NCBI RefSeq assembly: GCF_000970305.1
Contig: NZ_CP009517.1
Span: 248,001 to 312,000, forward strand
Source: Methanosarcina barkeri 3
GTDB lineage: Archaea > Halobacteriota > Methanosarcinia > Methanosarcinales > Methanosarcinaceae
Direction: 5' to 3'
Length of the DNA stretch: 64,000 nucleotides
Position numbers and translations under genes: made by a program. Below the pieces are notes generated by a model. It was not told the origin of the DNA. It was given only the letters and a program-made list of their open reading frames with translations, and made no database searches. Below are positions 52,650 to 59,573 of this stretch, piece after piece (the first letter of the stretch is position 1; each line of letters opens with the position of its first letter).

Positions 52650-52930
52650 TAAAATATCCTCCAGTCTTCATTTGTAAAACTATAAAATAGAAAACAGAAT
52701 AATTAATTTAACAAAGTCGTTCAGTGATATTACAGTACAAACTTATTTATACATATCTGTAAGATATTCCCTAACCAATATGGATAGTAATAACACGATT
52801 CATGAATTATATGGTTTGGTAGATAAGAAAACGGTATTTTCAGTAATAAAAAGAAAGTTTGGAGAATAGTTAAAGCAAGAAAGTTTTACAACCAAGTAAA
52901 AGAAATAAAAGTAAAATGATAGTGTATAAT
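52650..52930. other. Probable promoter region of the S-layer-type gene
   Basis: A+T-rich, no gene. AACTTATTTATACATAT (52740-52756) contains a plausible TATA-like box for the minus-strand gene. Confidence 0.35.
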
Positions 52931-53210
52931 ATAAGTAAAAATTATAAACTCATTTTGGATGAGATTCAGGATTTATACAACCATAATAATTGACATTGAA
53001 GCTCATCCTAAAACCAATTTTATTCCCATATCTATACTGTTTTCATGTTAGAAATTGGAGTAATTATTTGAAATTTAAGATTTTGGGATAAGCCATTGAA
53101 ATAATTCCAAAATCAAGCTCTCTCGATAATAATATCATTGAAATGAAAAAAATTGCAAAGAAAATGATAAGCAATAATTGAGAAAATTTCTCCTTGTTAA
53201 TTCACACTGA
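52931..53210 (-). pseudogene. Decayed paralogue of the 54329-54523 gene, split by a MITE-like element
   Basis: Positions 53101-53205 match 54427-54530 closely, sharing CTCTCGATAATAATATCATT and GATAAGCAGTAATTGAG-like stretches. The start codon has become CTT-equivalent and frame indels are present. The matching part continues left of the inserted element (52940-53000, ending AATTGACATTGAA). The element at 53001-53093 is inserted inside the former coding region. Confidence 0.7.
53001..53093 (+). mobile_element. MITE-like element with 7-bp target duplication
   Basis: 93 bp with terminal inverted repeats GCTCATCCTAAAACC and its near complement ending TTTTGGGATAAGC. It is flanked by CATTGAA at 52994-53000 and 53094-53100. 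The intact paralogue at 54329-54523 shows the uninterrupted site with a single CATTGAA. This confirms insertion by transposition. No coding capacity. Confidence 0.85.
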
Positions 53211-53227
53211 TGAATTGACATCCATAG

Positions 53228-54159
53228 TTATAAGTTTTTAACCGTTTTTGTTCTTTCTGATCTCCGCTTTGAACTCGTTATAACAACGCTTAAAAGTTTG
53301 GTTTTGGATTTACAGCAAGCAAATTCGAGACGTGCCAGAGAAGGTAAGTAATCACAGACTTTTTCGCCATAAGATCTAACATGCTTCCAGGCTTTATGGT
53401 GATTGGCAAAAAGATTCTCGTCTACGTATATTGAATTATTTTCCCTATTATATACAACTCTATCATTTCCTACTGGACAGACCTTGATACATATACCGCA
53501 CGGTGAAATGTGACGCTTGTTTAATTCAGCGCTATAAGAGGAACAGGCTTTTTTATCTGTCAGTCCGCTAGGGTAATCTTCCTTATTAAGAGCTTTTGAT
53601 GGACACATCTTTACACAACGCATACAGCGAGTGCAAAGTTCAGTTTCCAACATCGGATCCGGAGGAAGCTCGGCTGTGGACAGAATTGAACCAAAGCGGA
53701 CCCTGGGGCCATATTGAGGCGTAATAATAGTGTTATTTACCCCAAAAGTGCCCAATCCAGCGAGTAAAGCAGCATGTCTATGAGAAAAGAAGGCAATGGG
53801 ATTTTCGAGAAGTACCTGAATGCTTCCGTACCCATCTCTAGGTATGAAAATAGAGGGGTATCCTTTCTCGGTCAGGAAGTTAGCAAGTCTATAAGTGTAC
53901 TGATCCAGTAAGGTGTTTACAGTATTGTACAATTCGCGGTAGTACAAAGAAGGGGATGTTTCCAACACCGGTAGGGGTATCGGCAATCCGATAACTATCA
54001 CTGATTTTGCTTCAGGATATATTGACTGAGGATAGAATTCTTCAGGCATCCATGGTAAAAAAGGAGGGTTATTCCTCTCTCAACATTGGTAACCCCAACC
54101 ATGGGTATGTCCATGCTTTCGCATTTCTGCAGGAGGGCTTTTTTTAGATCTTCAGTCAT
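53228..54159 (-). pseudogene. QueG-like 4Fe-4S oxidoreductase with N-terminal frameshift
   Basis: The 273-residue main frame (from 54049) reads PEEFYPQSIYPEAKSVIVIG and contains two ferredoxin motifs, CTRCMRCVKMCPSKAL and CGICIKVCPVGND. These are typical of epoxyqueuosine reductase-like and reductive-dehalogenase-like proteins. Upstream in another frame, an ATG at 54157-54159 (after GAAAGGATG) encodes MTEDLKKALLQKCESMDIPM and VGVTNVER. In relatives this continues directly into a WxxPPFxPWxPEEF segment. The break lies near 54065-54090. Joined, the length of about 310 residues is normal. The C-terminal ~35 residues are basic and unlike the family. Either a recent pseudogene or one sequencing error. 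The substrate is unknown; related archaeal paralogues are not queuosine enzymes. Confidence 0.75.
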
Positions 54160-54328
54160 AGTTTCATCCTTTCTTTATCATTCATTGTTGCTACAGAGAG
54201 ATATTTTTACCTATTCATTTAACGTTTTCACTAATTAATACGTCCAGGATTTCCCAAAAAGAGAAAACGGATTTAATTAACTTGGATAAACTTCTATCGT
54301 TTTTGAACTGAAGAATTACAAGGAAAAA

Positions 54329-54523
54329 TCAAAAAGAATGTAGCCTGTTGTATACATTTACAATTAGGGTTATAACAAAATATAGAATCAGAGATCCTAT
54401 TAATGATCCAAAAATTGACATTGAAATAATTCCAAAATCGAGTTCTCTCGATAATAATATCATTGGAACGAAAAGAATTACGAAGAAAACGATAAGCAGT
54501 AATTGAGGAGGTCTTTTCTTCAT
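54329..54523 (-). CDS. Small two-helix membrane protein
   Basis: 64 residues: MKKRPPQLLLIVFFVILFVP, a short polar turn (SRELDFG) and a second helix (MSIFGSLIGSLILYFVITLI). The family is unrecognised. A decayed second copy lies at 52931-53210, so this is a duplicated gene of which this copy stays open. The N-terminal basic residues imply a cytoplasmic N-terminus. Confidence 0.55.
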   Translation of the reverse strand: MKKRPPQLLLIVFFVILFVPMILLSRELDFGIISMSIFGSLIGSLILYFVITLIVNVYNRLHSF

Positions 54524-54819
54524 GTTAATTCACAACCATAGATCGACACACACGTTTGTAAATTTTTTAATGTCAACTCTTTTTGCTATTTTTAACGCTG
54601 TTTGACCTAAGCTTATGAAATGCTTGTAATGAACTTTACACTCACAACTTCTAGTTCTTTGACTCCAAACCAATTACGAACCTGAACTTTCTAATTCATC
54701 AGCTGATCGATCAAGTCTTCCTTAAATCTGGATTTTAAACTATCGGATTCAAACTGCGAATTTTAAACTGCCTAATTTAAACTGCGAATTTTAAACTTTC
54801 AGATTAAGCACAATGCGAA
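54524..54819. other. Short-repeat spacer
   Basis: Positions 54725-54800 repeat AAACTGCGAATTTTAAACTG-like units of about 18-20 bp. No gene is seen. Confidence 0.5.
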
Positions 54820-55176
54820 TTATATGTAGTATTCAACATAGAAACGGTAAGCAACCTGAACTTCTTCCAGCTCCCTTGGCTCCAGTTCAAAATCAGGCTG
54901 GCTAGTTTTGTAAGTCTTTTCTCCAAAATTTTTAAAGGTGACTTCGCATTTTATATTTTCAGGAAGTTGAGCCTCAAAGCTACCGCATTTATCGCGGATT
55001 TTCAGCACAAATTTTTCGATTTCTGCAGGACTGAAGACTTTTTTCTTTTCAGGGATATAATTTACCTCAACTATCAATTCTTCTTTGCTTGTTAAATCTG
55101 CCCAGAAGCCGGAAAGCTCGGTTCCTTCTATCCTGTAGTCCTGAAGTTCAAAACTTCTCGTGATTGTATTCTTCAT
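54820..55176 (-). CDS. Hypothetical protein
   Basis: 118 residues from the ATG at 55174-55176, which has GGAAGAG 6 bases upstream; the outer ATG at 55191 lacks such a site. The protein is soluble and predicted to be mostly beta with one helix (ELIVEVNYIPEKKKVFSPAE). It has one cysteine near the middle and another later. No family is recognised. It is oriented like the radical SAM gene but about 390 bases separate them, including a MITE-like element, so no operon is implied. The length and cysteine content do not resemble a ribosomal-peptide precursor. Confidence 0.5.
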   Translation of the reverse strand: MKNTITRSFELQDYRIEGTELSGFWADLTSKEELIVEVNYIPEKKKVFSPAEIEKFVLKIRDKCGSFEAQLPENIKCEVTFKNFGEKTYKTSQPDFELEPRELEEVQVAYRFYVEYYI

Positions 55177-55281
55177 TTTGCTCTCTTCCATATTCTTAGT
55201 TTAGAAAGTGGATATATATAAACTATTTTAAAAACAAAGCAAATTATTTAGAAATTTCTTTAAATTAATAATTCTTTGTGA

Positions 55282-55377
55282 GCTCATCCCAAAACCAATT
55301 TTATTCTCAAATCTATTATACTATTTTCATGTTGGAAATTAGAGCGAGTATTCAAAATTCAAGGTTTTGGGATAGGC
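55282..55377 (+). mobile_element. MITE-like element, complete copy
   Basis: 96 bp with ends GCTCATCCCAAAACC and GGTTTTGGGATAGGC, inverted repeats of the same family as 53001-53093. No clear target duplication. It abuts the lipoprotein signal remnant on its right. Confidence 0.85.
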
Positions 55378-55490
55378 TCTGAGTTTGTTCTCTTTTCAGT
55401 AAAGCCGACTGCAAAAACAACAGTAGCAATAACAAGAAGCATTGCTACTATTTTTTAAACTTTTTCTAATTAGTAACATCACTAAAAATC
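55378..55490 (-). pseudogene. Signal-sequence remnant truncated by the MITE-like element
   Basis: On the minus strand a frame reads KIVAMLLVIATVVFAVGFTE, then KRTNSEPIPKP, with the last residues coded by the element. It resembles the lipoprotein-type signal peptides of Methanosarcina exported proteins (lipobox Cys replaced by Phe here). A stop just before KIVAM separates it from a possible ATG. The rest of the gene is gone. Confidence 0.4.
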
Positions 55491-55565
55491 TTTCTTCATT
55501 TCAAAAACATAATTGATTCACGAATTTATACAAGTTCATAAGCTCCATGTATTTTTGAGCTTCCG

Positions 55566-56708
55566 TTAGAGTTTTTTAAGCATGAGGGACATTATTCCGG
55601 ATTTTGAAGGTCTCATGCTGCTGGGAGAGAACATGCTATCCATATCTGAACCCCCGAACATTTCCTCGTTGACACGCTTGTTAATTTCATCAAAAATCAT
55701 CTTGTAGGCCAGGCAGTGCGGGTCTACGCCCTCTATCTCGCCGCTCGTGGGCACTATTGCATTGTACGGGCATCCGCCTCTGCAATATTTGATATGGGCG
55801 CATTTACTGCATGCGGTGTCCACATATTCTTTGAACTTATGCATTTTCTTCCAGGCTTCGGATTGAGCGAGGTCTGCCATGCTTGGACGGTCATAAACAT
55901 TACCCATAACGTATTCGGGCATTCCTATAAAACGATAACAGGGGTATATATCTCCGTCAGGGCCTACTGCAAAGGTATCTCCCATACAGTCAACATAGGT
56001 GCAGACCGTGCCATGGCCTGTGAAAACACATTTGCACAGGTGATCAATGTTCATAACCTCAATCCGGCCCAGGTTTTCCAGATATTTATCCAGAAGATAG
56101 ATCAGGAGTTCTCCGTATTCCTCTGGAGCGAGAGTCCATCTCTCAGGATTGTCATCTTTTAATGAAGGCAAGCAGGGATGGAGCTTGAGCGTCAACCCTT
56201 TCTCAAGATAAAAATTAAAAATCTCTTCCTTTTGTTTTACGGAATGAGAAGTGAAAGTGGTAATGAACCTCACATTAAGCCCGTGTTCCCTGGCAATTTC
56301 ATAGCCTCTCATGGTTTTGTCATAGTATCCTTTTCCCCTCTGCAGGTCATTAAGTTCTTTTGGGCCATCCAGGCTGGAGCCTATGGGAACCCCATATTCC
56401 GCAAAAATTTCGGCTATTTCAGGGGTCATTTTCCAGAGGTTTGTCTGTATCGCAAAAGCGATTCTCCTTGGGCTTAAACCCTCAACCAGAAGCGGCAGTG
56501 CCTCCCGATAAAATTCCGCTCCAGCTAGGAGCGGTTCTCCTCCATGGAATGTGAAAGTAACCGAATCTCCCCTGAAAGTTTTAAGCCACTCAACAACTTC
56601 TTTTATCGTTTCAATGCTCATTATAGGGGACTTTTCTTCGGAACTCCAGCAGTAGCTGCAGTTAGCAGGACAACCAAGGGTCGGGATTAACATCACATGA
56701 AAAGGCAT
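55566..56708 (-). CDS. Peptide-modifying radical SAM/SPASM enzyme (TIGR04083-like)
   Basis: 380 residues. CPANCSYC at residues 13-20 is the CxxxCxxC site of the SAM-binding cluster, and FHGGEPLLAGAEFY carries the GGEP motif. The C-terminal SPASM domain has many cysteines: CKC, CTYVDC, YPCYRF, CSKCAHIKYCRGGCPYNAIV and PHC. They should ligate two further Fe-S clusters. Sequence and length fit the methanogen family of putative peptide-modifying enzymes (TIGR04083). These are thought to act on a small ribosomally made peptide, as do anaerobic sulfatase-maturating and sactipeptide enzymes. AAGGTG precedes the ATG. No cysteine-rich precursor was found within 600 bases either side, so the substrate must be elsewhere or be an unrecognised neighbour. 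The SPASM family is certain, the subfamily likely. Confidence 0.85.
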   Translation of the reverse strand: MPFHVMLIPTLGCPANCSYCWSSEEKSPIMSIETIKEVVEWLKTFRGDSVTFTFHGGEPLLAGAEFYREALPLLVEGLSPRRIAFAIQTNLWKMTPEIAEIFAEYGVPIGSSLDGPKELNDLQRGKGYYDKTMRGYEIAREHGLNVRFITTFTSHSVKQKEEIFNFYLEKGLTLKLHPCLPSLKDDNPERWTLAPEEYGELLIYLLDKYLENLGRIEVMNIDHLCKCVFTGHGTVCTYVDCMGDTFAVGPDGDIYPCYRFIGMPEYVMGNVYDRPSMADLAQSEAWKKMHKFKEYVDTACSKCAHIKYCRGGCPYNAIVPTSGEIEGVDPHCLAYKMIFDEINKRVNEEMFGGSDMDSMFSPSSMRPSKSGIMSLMLKKL

Positions 56709-57331
56709 ATTTAAAGCACCTTTTTTTTAAGCTTCTTTAAATTATTAGTACTTTTCTAAGTTCTACTGAGAAAACTAAGATCGAGATACTCTTTAATGTT
56801 TTATATGTTCAGCTTATCTAATTTCTTAGGCTCAGCATTCTCTAAATTTCTCTTTACTTTTTTGTCAATCAGGAGTTTATATCAAGTTCAATCAAATATT
56901 ACATAGCATATTTTTCAATAAATAGTCCGCAATATATTACGGAAAGTAAAGATTAGCTAAGTTAAGGTGCGCCAGAAGAAACGGGTTCCAGGAAAAACAA
57001 ACATAATTCCAAGATTTTACATTTCTGATATACAATTTGTATATATTTATACTGACTTCATATTATATTTGCAATAAATTTTAACATAGATTTTACAAAT
57101 AGGGGGATAATATCTAAATTTGAAGTATACACAGGTAGACAAGAGAATACCACTTTAGACTAAGGGCAAGAAACAGGTAGATTATAGCTTTAAGTCAGCG
57201 CTACAAAGGCAAAGAAAGCTGCCTGAAAGGTATCAAGTCAGTAAAACTAAGATTAGAGTATAGCTTATCTGTAATAAAAACAATAGACGATGAATAAGGA
57301 AGCTACCGGTTTTAATGGGTAGCATTTCACA
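56709..57331. other. Spacer upstream of the radical SAM gene
   Basis: Both strands were checked for small cysteine-rich frames and none was found. The segment 57140-57260 looks like decayed coding sequence without identity. A TATA-like stretch lies at about 57040-57050. Confidence 0.4.
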
Positions 57332-58021
57332 TTATATCTCATATGTTCCTTCTCCTGTAACAAGCTCCCCATTTACTGCTGTCCATCCATCCTGAGGTCC
57401 GGATAACATAATTTCCACTTTTTCCCTATAGTTATTAGACTGCCATCCTCCGATCCACCATTCATTACGTGCGTCCAAGTAGATCGAAATGCTGGTATTT
57501 GCATTCGAGGAGGTCTCATAGGAGGCATACACCCGGCTTTCATAATCAAATTGCTCAGATGTCCGTGAATATGCTCCGCTAGCGTTGACATTATGCGTAA
57601 GATTGTATTTGGGCATAAGGACCATTTCATTGCCCAACGGGTTCATTGTATCTATGGTCTGGTTAGAAAATACCATTGTACTAAGATCTATACTTTTTGC
57701 CTTCTCATTTTTCATAGATAACATGAGCCCGTGTTCCGTATCTACTAGGGCGTATTCCCATGAAGGATTATTGTTATTAAAGTGATGCTCTACGGTATCC
57801 ACGCCCACGGATGACGTATTGTTTATCACCGGAAGTGGAAGGTAAAGAGTTGCGTTGCTCAAGGTCGAGTCCGTAGTTAATATTACATCGTAATCATAAA
57901 CACTTGTGAAACTATTATTATACATTTTCTGCTTCTGATCTTGCCACCAGATAGACAGCAACCCTACAGAAATGATTATTAATAGTACAAACCCGATCCC
58001 TATTTTGTAACGAGTCCTCAT
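57332..58021 (-). CDS. Membrane-anchored or exported hypothetical protein
   Basis: 229 residues. An N-terminal membrane segment (about 8-26, IGFVLLIIISVGLLSIWW) is followed by a beta-rich, Asn/Thr/Ser-rich domain with several N-glycosylation sequons (NNS, NAT, NNT, NQT, NLT). That is typical of exported Methanosarcina proteins. No enzymatic motif is seen. The C-terminus EWWIGGWQSNNYREKVEIML may form a lipocalin-like or sandwich fold. It resembles archaeal hypothetical exported proteins of similar length, but I cannot name a family. Confidence 0.6.
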   Translation of the reverse strand: MRTRYKIGIGFVLLIIISVGLLSIWWQDQKQKMYNNSFTSVYDYDVILTTDSTLSNATLYLPLPVINNTSSVGVDTVEHHFNNNNPSWEYALVDTEHGLMLSMKNEKAKSIDLSTMVFSNQTIDTMNPLGNEMVLMPKYNLTHNVNASGAYSRTSEQFDYESRVYASYETSSNANTSISIYLDARNEWWIGGWQSNNYREKVEIMLSGPQDGWTAVNGELVTGEGTYEI

Positions 58022-58540
58022 GTTTCAACACCTTATCCACTCTTGAGGAAAGATTTTAATTAAATATAATTGCTTTATAATTTCATTATATATCTAAGTC
58101 ATAATAATTTAAGTGGGACACAGAAGAACTACCTTTGAATTAATTTTCATTTTGATTTAATTCCCATTTCGCAATGATTAATCTCGACAATAATGGGAAC
58201 TGCCTAGTATAGTGCTGGGCGACAAATTACTTTAGAACTCTCTAAATTCTTCTTTGCTGATTCTTTATATGTTTTCTGGCCAAATTGTCAACAATGCAAT
58301 TTTTACACTTACTTTGCCATGAAATAAATTTCTAATTTTTGATTGTTAGACGATTTGGCCGGAAAACATATATATAAGCAAATATCCTGACCCTTATTCA
58401 AATAATATATATAAAAAATAATCAATGGAATTTTCGAGGGAATTAACAGTATCGTACAGTTGAAAAAAGAAATGCAAGAGGGTTTAAAAGCATATACTAT
58501 TTTATTAATATGATCTATCTAAAATTAGGGAAACTAAAAT
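58022..58540. other. Spacer with large imperfect inverted repeat
   Basis: TATATGTTTTCTGGCCAAAT through ACAA (58266-58294) and its near complement (58343-58372) could form a long hairpin of about 29 paired bases around 48 bases. No gene is supported. Small plus-strand frames from 58510 onward are antisense to the UPF0228 remnant. Confidence 0.5.
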
Positions 58541-58872
58541 TCAAATTACCCAAATGGTTTCGTTATCGACAGCTTGTTCGGATACAGATATTATATAATA
58601 ATCTTCTTTTTGATATCCGTAGCAGATTTAAATTTATCATTTACACGCTGTTTTTATTATTTTCTACCTGTATATATTTGTCTGCCTATATTCTACATTA
58701 TAGTCCAGCCTATACGTAAAAAGGTTGCAGCCTTCAAGAATAGTTTTAACTTCGGATTTAGTAATTCCCTCTTCAAACTCTATAACTAAGCTACTTACTT
58801 CAATTCGTGATCTGGAGTTTTAGGATCAACTGTGATTTTCGAATCAACGTGTGCTGACGTAAACAGTAACAA
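58541..58872 (-). pseudogene. UPF0228 family protein, degenerate
   Basis: Fragments in shifting minus-strand frames follow the family order. A hydrophobic leader ILLLFTSAHVDSK comes first, then VIEFEEGITKSEVKTILEGC and a NLFTYRLDYNVE segment, and finally KEDYYIISVSEQAVDNE. Two frameshifts and at least two stops interrupt it. The C-terminal third of the family (cysteine-containing FGD region) is missing. UPF0228 proteins are small exported proteins found in several copies in Methanosarcina, function unknown. Confidence 0.7.
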
Positions 58873-58874
58873 TA

Positions 58875-59282
58875 TTAGTTTAGCTTTCTGAATTCGACTC
58901 CTTCAAACCTGCATGTTGAAATTCTTCTTTCACGGAAAGCATACAAGAAGACCTTAAAAAGAGCATAAAGCCTGAAATAATAAGCAAGCAGGACAGGAGA
59001 GCGAAAACCGCTGATATATACGATTTTTTTATCGTCCCTGATAGAGTCATCCAGGAATTTTACTATCCCGTCAAAAGAATTCCTTTTAAGTGTACTTCCT
59101 CTCGGCATGCGGGGTCCGAGTACAACTACATCCTCTTCCATTCCATCTGCACCTTCTGTTCCCTCTACAAAGCCGTAATTGAAAATTGTAGGCAGGGGAG
59201 AAAAAAAAGCCTTTTCATAGCCTTTTTCTGTTCTGTTATACTTCCAGAAACTATATTTTGGGGTTTCGATTATAATTTTCAT
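58875..59282 (-). CDS. Inorganic pyrophosphatase-like protein
   Basis: 135 residues, shorter than family I pyrophosphatase (~170). KYSFWKYNRTEKGYEKAFFS, PLPTIFNYGFVEGTEGADGM and EEDVVVLGPRMPRGS correspond to the substrate-binding beta-barrel strands. PTIFNYGFVEGTxGxDGxxxD is the pattern around the metal-binding aspartates of soluble pyrophosphatases. The usual DPID catalytic stretch is only partly present, so activity is uncertain. It may be a diverged paralogue with another phosphate substrate. It is divergent from the Trm5-like gene. Confidence 0.65.
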   Translation of the reverse strand: MKIIIETPKYSFWKYNRTEKGYEKAFFSPLPTIFNYGFVEGTEGADGMEEDVVVLGPRMPRGSTLKRNSFDGIVKFLDDSIRDDKKIVYISGFRSPVLLAYYFRLYALFKVFLYAFRERRISTCRFEGVEFRKLN

Positions 59283-59408
59283 GGGTAATAGTCCTGCCTG
59301 TACTGTTACGAATGGCTGTTTAAAGTTTCTTCCGGGTTTTTACCTTTTTCCACAATTTCTCAGCCATTTCCCAAAACAAAAAGCATATATTAAAATGATT
59401 CTTAAAAA

Positions 59409-59536
59409 CGGAACTAAAATCTGAAACTTAATATCCGGAACTTAATATCTGAAACTTAATATCTGAAACTTAATATCTTGAACTTAATATCCGGAACTTA
59501 ATATCTTGAACTTAATATCTGGAATTAAAATCTTAA
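59409..59536. repeat. 14-15-bp tandem repeat upstream of the Trm5-like gene
   Basis: About nine copies of CTGAAACTTAATAT and variants (CCGGAACTTAATAT, CTTGAACTTAATAT), ending within 40 bases of the start codon. Confidence 0.85.
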
Positions 59537-59573
59537 AGTGAAAGTCTACAATTTGATAAGCAGAGGATTCTTA

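Follow-up and report, generated by a model that had tools for sequence, protein, structure and literature searches.

The question raised by this locus is what a radical SAM enzyme acts on when nothing resembling a substrate is encoded beside it. The gene lies at 55566-56708 on the minus strand of the window, by which we mean the whole 64,000-nucleotide stretch of the Methanosarcina barkeri 3 genome that was analysed, and a sequence-only reading had assigned its product to the radical SAM enzymes with a SPASM domain, had seen no precursor peptide nearby, and had suggested that it might define a methanogen peptide natural product. The enzyme class is borne out: the open reading frame is real, with 380 codons and an ATG start, and its product scores 710.2 bits against NCBIfam TIGR04083 (model positions 1-376 of 376; curated cut-off, 300 bits) and matches both the Pfam Radical_SAM and SPASM domains. 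It is the one member above cut-off in its own genome (4,560,446 bases), and its orthologs are strongly conserved, with identities from 56% (Methanosphaera) upward among those aligned. TIGR04083 is catalogued as a hypoth_equivalog, 'peptide-modifying radical SAM enzyme', to which no substrate or reaction is assigned; desaturation of an aspartate in McrA, the alpha subunit of methyl-coenzyme M reductase (MCR), is our proposal for this full-length member. No papers on TIGR04083, or on the small-protein family TIGR04165 considered below, were found in the open-access literature, most subscription journals lying outside the search. The gene and the parts of it on which the argument draws are:

55566..56708, minus strand: TIGR04083 radical SAM/SPASM protein-modifying enzyme, 380 aa; candidate McrA aspartate desaturase
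56649..56672, minus strand, codons 13-20: CxxxCxxC, the radical SAM 4Fe-4S cluster motif (C13, C17, C20), invariant in 23 orthologs
55713..56003, minus strand, codons 236-332: SPASM cysteines C236, C241, C257, C300, C303, C309, C313 and C332, from Pfam and the alignment
55935..55937, minus strand, codon 258: Tyr258 in an invariant YPCY motif, aligned with Asp277 of the anaerobic sulfatase-maturating enzyme (anSME); Tyr in 134/134 orthologs
55656..55715, minus strand, codons 332-351: C-terminal helix, confidently predicted; the M. wolfeii stop described below falls at the codon equivalent to Tyr335

The genomic context of the orthologs points to MCR. Of the 57 Halobacteriota genomes in which both genes share a contig, 19 have the enzyme gene on the same strand as mcrA, at 144-1345 bp downstream, against about 0.02 expected by chance under a uniform model, related genomes not being independent; as the 19 span four GTDB families, the effective number is below 19 but above one. 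Neighbour analysis placed mcrA immediately upstream of the enzyme in Methanolobus loci and on the ANME-2 contig L098, and at locus L068 the upstream protein scores 1012.6 bits against TIGR03256 (McrA). On L098 mcrA precedes the enzyme gene by 92 bp and encodes a protein closest to 9qm5, the structure of an ANME-2c enzyme reported to contain didehydroaspartate (PMC12413448). The enzyme gene stands away from mcrA in Methanobacteria and in Methanosarcina, our genome included (303,575 vs 3,099,034), which counts against an McrA target. Across 393 Halobacteriota genomes, the enzyme is found above cut-off in 132 and McrA in 228, and McrA accompanies it in 129 of the 132 enzyme-positive genomes, compared with 99 of the 261 that are enzyme-negative; in the three exceptions (G164, G301, G367) the gap may perhaps come from the assemblies. 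Methanobacteria carry the enzyme in 136/152 genomes. Its function therefore looks tied to methane metabolism, unlike that of a patchily distributed natural-product pathway.

Which residue of MCR might be concerned is suggested by the distribution of McrA modifications. Didehydroaspartate is tabulated as present in M. marburgensis I and II, M. barkeri and M. acetivorans, and as absent in M. kandleri, M. formicicus, M. wolfeii, M. thermolithotrophicus, M. shengliensis, ANME-1 and Ca. E. thermophilum (PMC9081873), and it is described in ANME-2c and two ANME-2d (PMC12413448). We took modification states from the tables of these two papers and of PMC7058361, and assigned genomes to them by McrA identity to PDB chains. 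An intact enzyme gene was present in 5/5 modified lineages and 0/4 unmodified, two of those four being relatives of the measured organism, so that the correlation draws on some nine lineages, few and related; the unmodified set was limited to M. wolfeii, Ethanoperedens, an ANME-1 relative and M. jannaschii. On the modified side, McrA shows 0/550 differences to 3pot (M. marburgensis) in G537 and 0/569 to 1e6y (M. barkeri) in G642, with intact enzymes at 577 and 707 bits respectively; the enzyme is also present in M. acetivorans (a named control), in loci of Methanoperedens (ANME-2d) and in ANME-2c. On the other side, no enzyme was found above cut-off in G386, whose McrA is identical to 7b1s, the ethyl-CoM reductase of Ca. 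Ethanoperedens thermophilum (best score 62 bits), in the ANME-1 relative G058, whose McrA is nearest 3sqg (best 87 bits), or in M. jannaschii, a named control standing in for Methanococcales.

Other MCR modifications are distributed differently: S-methylcysteine is found in both M. wolfeii and Ethanoperedens, Methanosarcina has no methylglutamine, and methylhistidine, methylarginine and thioglycine turn up almost everywhere (PMC9081873). S-methylcysteine, methylglutamine and hydroxytryptophan were each considered as the product and rejected on misfitting distributions, and no known McrA modification other than didehydroaspartate has the enzyme's distribution. The machinery behind it was called unknown in a 2020 review and a 2021 structure paper (PMC7581889, PMC8070964), and we found no paper in the open-access literature that assigns it an installer. 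Every McrA sequence compared keeps the target aspartate, with no difference between genomes that have the enzyme and those that lack it, so residue covariation does not speak in favour of an McrA target.

A more particular case is M. wolfeii, whose McrA keeps S-methylcysteine and is missing didehydroaspartate (PMC9081873). In the genome G544, assigned to this species by an McrA identical to 5a8k, the M. wolfeii MCR I (PMC9118554), the enzyme gene is interrupted by an in-frame TAG, reading HQCEA-stop-RMIF vs HQCQAYRMIF in M. marburgensis, at a tyrosine present in 127/127 other orthologs scored. The stop takes away most of the C-terminal helix (332-351) and everything beyond it. All the cluster cysteines precede the stop, and dN/dS before it is about 0.08, like that of a sister species and without sign of long decay, which together suggest a recent stop, a stop that disables the enzyme only in part, or an error of sequencing. 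These observations on a stop known from one genome point to M. wolfeii as a natural near-knockout of the enzyme, consistent with McrA as its target. Separately, the enzyme gene of another genome (G542; locus L213, G542:C1:70200-74300) is split by a frameshift, which is either another broken copy or an error left from older sequencing.

The predicted structure suggests how such a modification might be made. The AlphaFold model (mean pLDDT 86) finds its closest fold in anSME (TIGR03942, PDB 4k36-4k39; TM-score 0.80), with which the enzyme has the radical SAM core and SPASM domain in common, and by comparison with the family two auxiliary 4Fe-4S clusters are expected on the SPASM cysteines C236-C332. 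anSME attacks the beta-carbon of a Cys or Ser side chain in its protein substrate, where, in the mechanism proposed for it, hydrogen is abstracted and an electron then passes to an auxiliary cluster; we propose that the present enzyme likewise acts at a side-chain beta-carbon. The two differ in sequence (25% identity), in the replacement of Asp277 by an invariant tyrosine, and in proposed substrate and product. The target would be the active-site Asp470 (Methanosarcina) of McrA, in the motif G-[YF]-D-L-Q-D-Q-C, and its conversion to didehydroaspartate may be envisaged as follows. Judging from the conserved motif, the CxxxCxxC cluster would cleave SAM to yield a 5'-deoxyadenosyl radical; by analogy with anSME, this radical would abstract hydrogen from the beta-carbon of the aspartate in freshly synthesised McrA; an auxiliary SPASM cluster might then accept the remaining electron, with loss of the alpha proton, to leave a Calpha=Cbeta double bond. 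Dedication of a radical SAM enzyme to one McrA residue has parallels in Mmp10 (mmpX/mamA) and MgmA, and mmp10 adjoins mcrB in most methanogens (PMC5943407). Those two methylate, however, being described as cobalamin-dependent methylases (PMC11796369, PMC11659888), whereas desaturation is proposed here, and MgmA is only a weak structural match to our model.

The observation of the sequence-only reading that no precursor is visible nearby still holds on closer inspection, as no small conserved precursor that is Cys-, Gly- or Pro-rich was found among the 96 ORFs of 15-130 aa in 52650-59540 (the gene excluded). Its suggestion of looking for small conserved frames that co-occur with the enzyme yielded, in Methanosarcina, just two ordinary genes and frames overlapping them, the ORFs kept in at least 5 of 21 loci being the gene at 54820-55191 and frames that overlap either it or the gene at 58875-59282. 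The former (minus strand), whose 123-aa product matches nothing in Pfam or NCBIfam, is kept downstream of the enzyme at 16 loci, most of them in Methanosarcinaceae; the latter (minus strand), which lies upstream of the enzyme at 22 or more loci in Methanosarcinaceae, has a 135-aa product that weakly matches inorganic pyrophosphatase (PF00719, 30 bits). Between the enzyme and this usual upstream neighbour lies a 229-aa ORF (57332-58021, minus strand) seen only in the window and its close relatives L045 and L046, as if it were a lineage-specific insertion, and a gene at 53228-54049 (minus strand), shared by three related loci only, encodes 273 aa with 4Fe-4S domains and a distant likeness to QueG and reductive dehalogenases. 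Elsewhere, the gene immediately before that of the enzyme in Methanosphaera and relatives (L107-L109, L157, L158) is for an RLI/ABCE1-type ATPase; ANME-2 contigs L075, L079, L084 and L094 have a double-ABC ATPase 140-180 bp upstream of the enzyme that resembles MCR component A2, scoring 331 bits against TIGR03269, under the 517 cut-off.

How far other substrates could account for these data varies considerably. A free peptide natural product made from a distant, unlike precursor, as the sequence-only reading had envisaged, draws on superfamily relatives whose substrates are RiPP precursors, the NCBIfam matches including ranthipeptide, cyclophane and dynobactin enzymes; we nevertheless think it very improbable, given the single copy, the strong conservation, a distribution that follows McrA, and the lack of a conserved small ORF or leader-binding domain. 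As to the last, the first cluster cysteine is residue 13 and a predicted core strand is already present at residues 3-7, so that the start of the enzyme, about a dozen residues before that cysteine, leaves no space for an N-terminal leader-binding (RRE-like) domain; such a domain is not carried by all RiPP maturases, and its absence is not decisive. Linkage, distribution and the broken M. wolfeii copy all point instead to McrA. That reading had itself opposed to a peptide substrate a normal-sized protein such as a sulfatase or methyltransferase, and with McrA at 550-600 aa and anSME, which matures a normal-sized protein, as the best structural match, the evidence now comes close to the latter. 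For the enzyme to be an anaerobic sulfatase maturase or other formylglycine-forming enzyme itself is scarcely credible, although anSME is also the second-best NCBIfam match: its score of 194.5 bits against TIGR03942 falls under the 349-bit cut-off, and Asp277 (anSMEcpe numbering), which we take to be the catalytic residue of anSME, is replaced by Tyr258 without exception among orthologs. Together, these two differences indicate that the enzyme is not an anSME.

The more serious contender lies in Methanobacteria, many of which encode, directly upstream of the enzyme, a protein of 50-70 aa that has two CxxC pairs and belongs to the Cys-rich peptide family TIGR04165 (methano_modCys; 84-88 bits). 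Were this the substrate there, and an unrecognised small protein elsewhere, the enzyme would serve a peptide-modifying system, and the association is close: in many genomes the end of the TIGR04165 gene is 1-8 bp from the enzyme start, each is present in 136/152 Methanobacteria genomes, with 14 of each one's 16 negatives common to both, and in the Methanosphaera genome G393 both are kept on different contigs, which indicates a tie beyond adjacency. To this extent the peptide-modifying idea has support, confined to Methanobacteria. It has none elsewhere: the TIGR04165-like peptides for which the sequence-only reading had advised a search were not found above the cut-off of 60 bits in the window's own genome (best, 22 bits) or in any of 393 Halobacteriota genomes, one third of which carry the enzyme, and this argues against TIGR04165 as the general substrate. 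Furthermore, the four cysteines, in two CxxC pairs, appear from sequence to be zinc-ribbon-like, and neither the mcrA linkage nor M. wolfeii, where TIGR04165 is intact beside the broken enzyme, is explained. We therefore consider this account unlikely; in Methanobacteria, TIGR04165 could be a substrate, in line with the NCBI names, or serve as adaptor or accessory protein. More improbable still, in our estimation, is that the enzyme acts on MCR through some other, undetected modification, another subunit or an assembly factor. Linkage to mcrA by itself names no residue, and some ANME-2 loci place the gene after the ATPase resembling the MCR activation component A2; against this, orphan didehydroaspartate has the same pattern of presence and absence, M. 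wolfeii included, and atomic-resolution structures leave little scope for an unseen change in McrA.

In summary, we regard the enzyme as a strong candidate for the McrA aspartate desaturase that installs didehydroaspartate, and think that it probably fills this role, on the combined indications of family, predicted fold, linkage to mcrA, and the match between intact gene and modification. Besides the separation of the two genes in Methanosarcina and Methanobacteria, it must be said against McrA as the target that the coupling to TIGR04165 is accommodated only by calling the latter accessory. The fuller picture, of an aspartate desaturase dedicated to MCR that works with a zinc-ribbon partner, TIGR04165, in Methanobacteria and alone elsewhere, often from beside the mcr operon, is one on which we are evenly divided. 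Almost all methane of biological origin comes from methyl-coenzyme M reductase; among the modifications in its active site, some are without a known installer, and for one of these the enzyme is now a named candidate. As the candidate gene is present in the genetically tractable M. acetivorans, the question of the installer is testable. If the proposal is true, heterologous production of MCR would call for one more gene, and a family assumed to modify peptides would become one that matures proteins.
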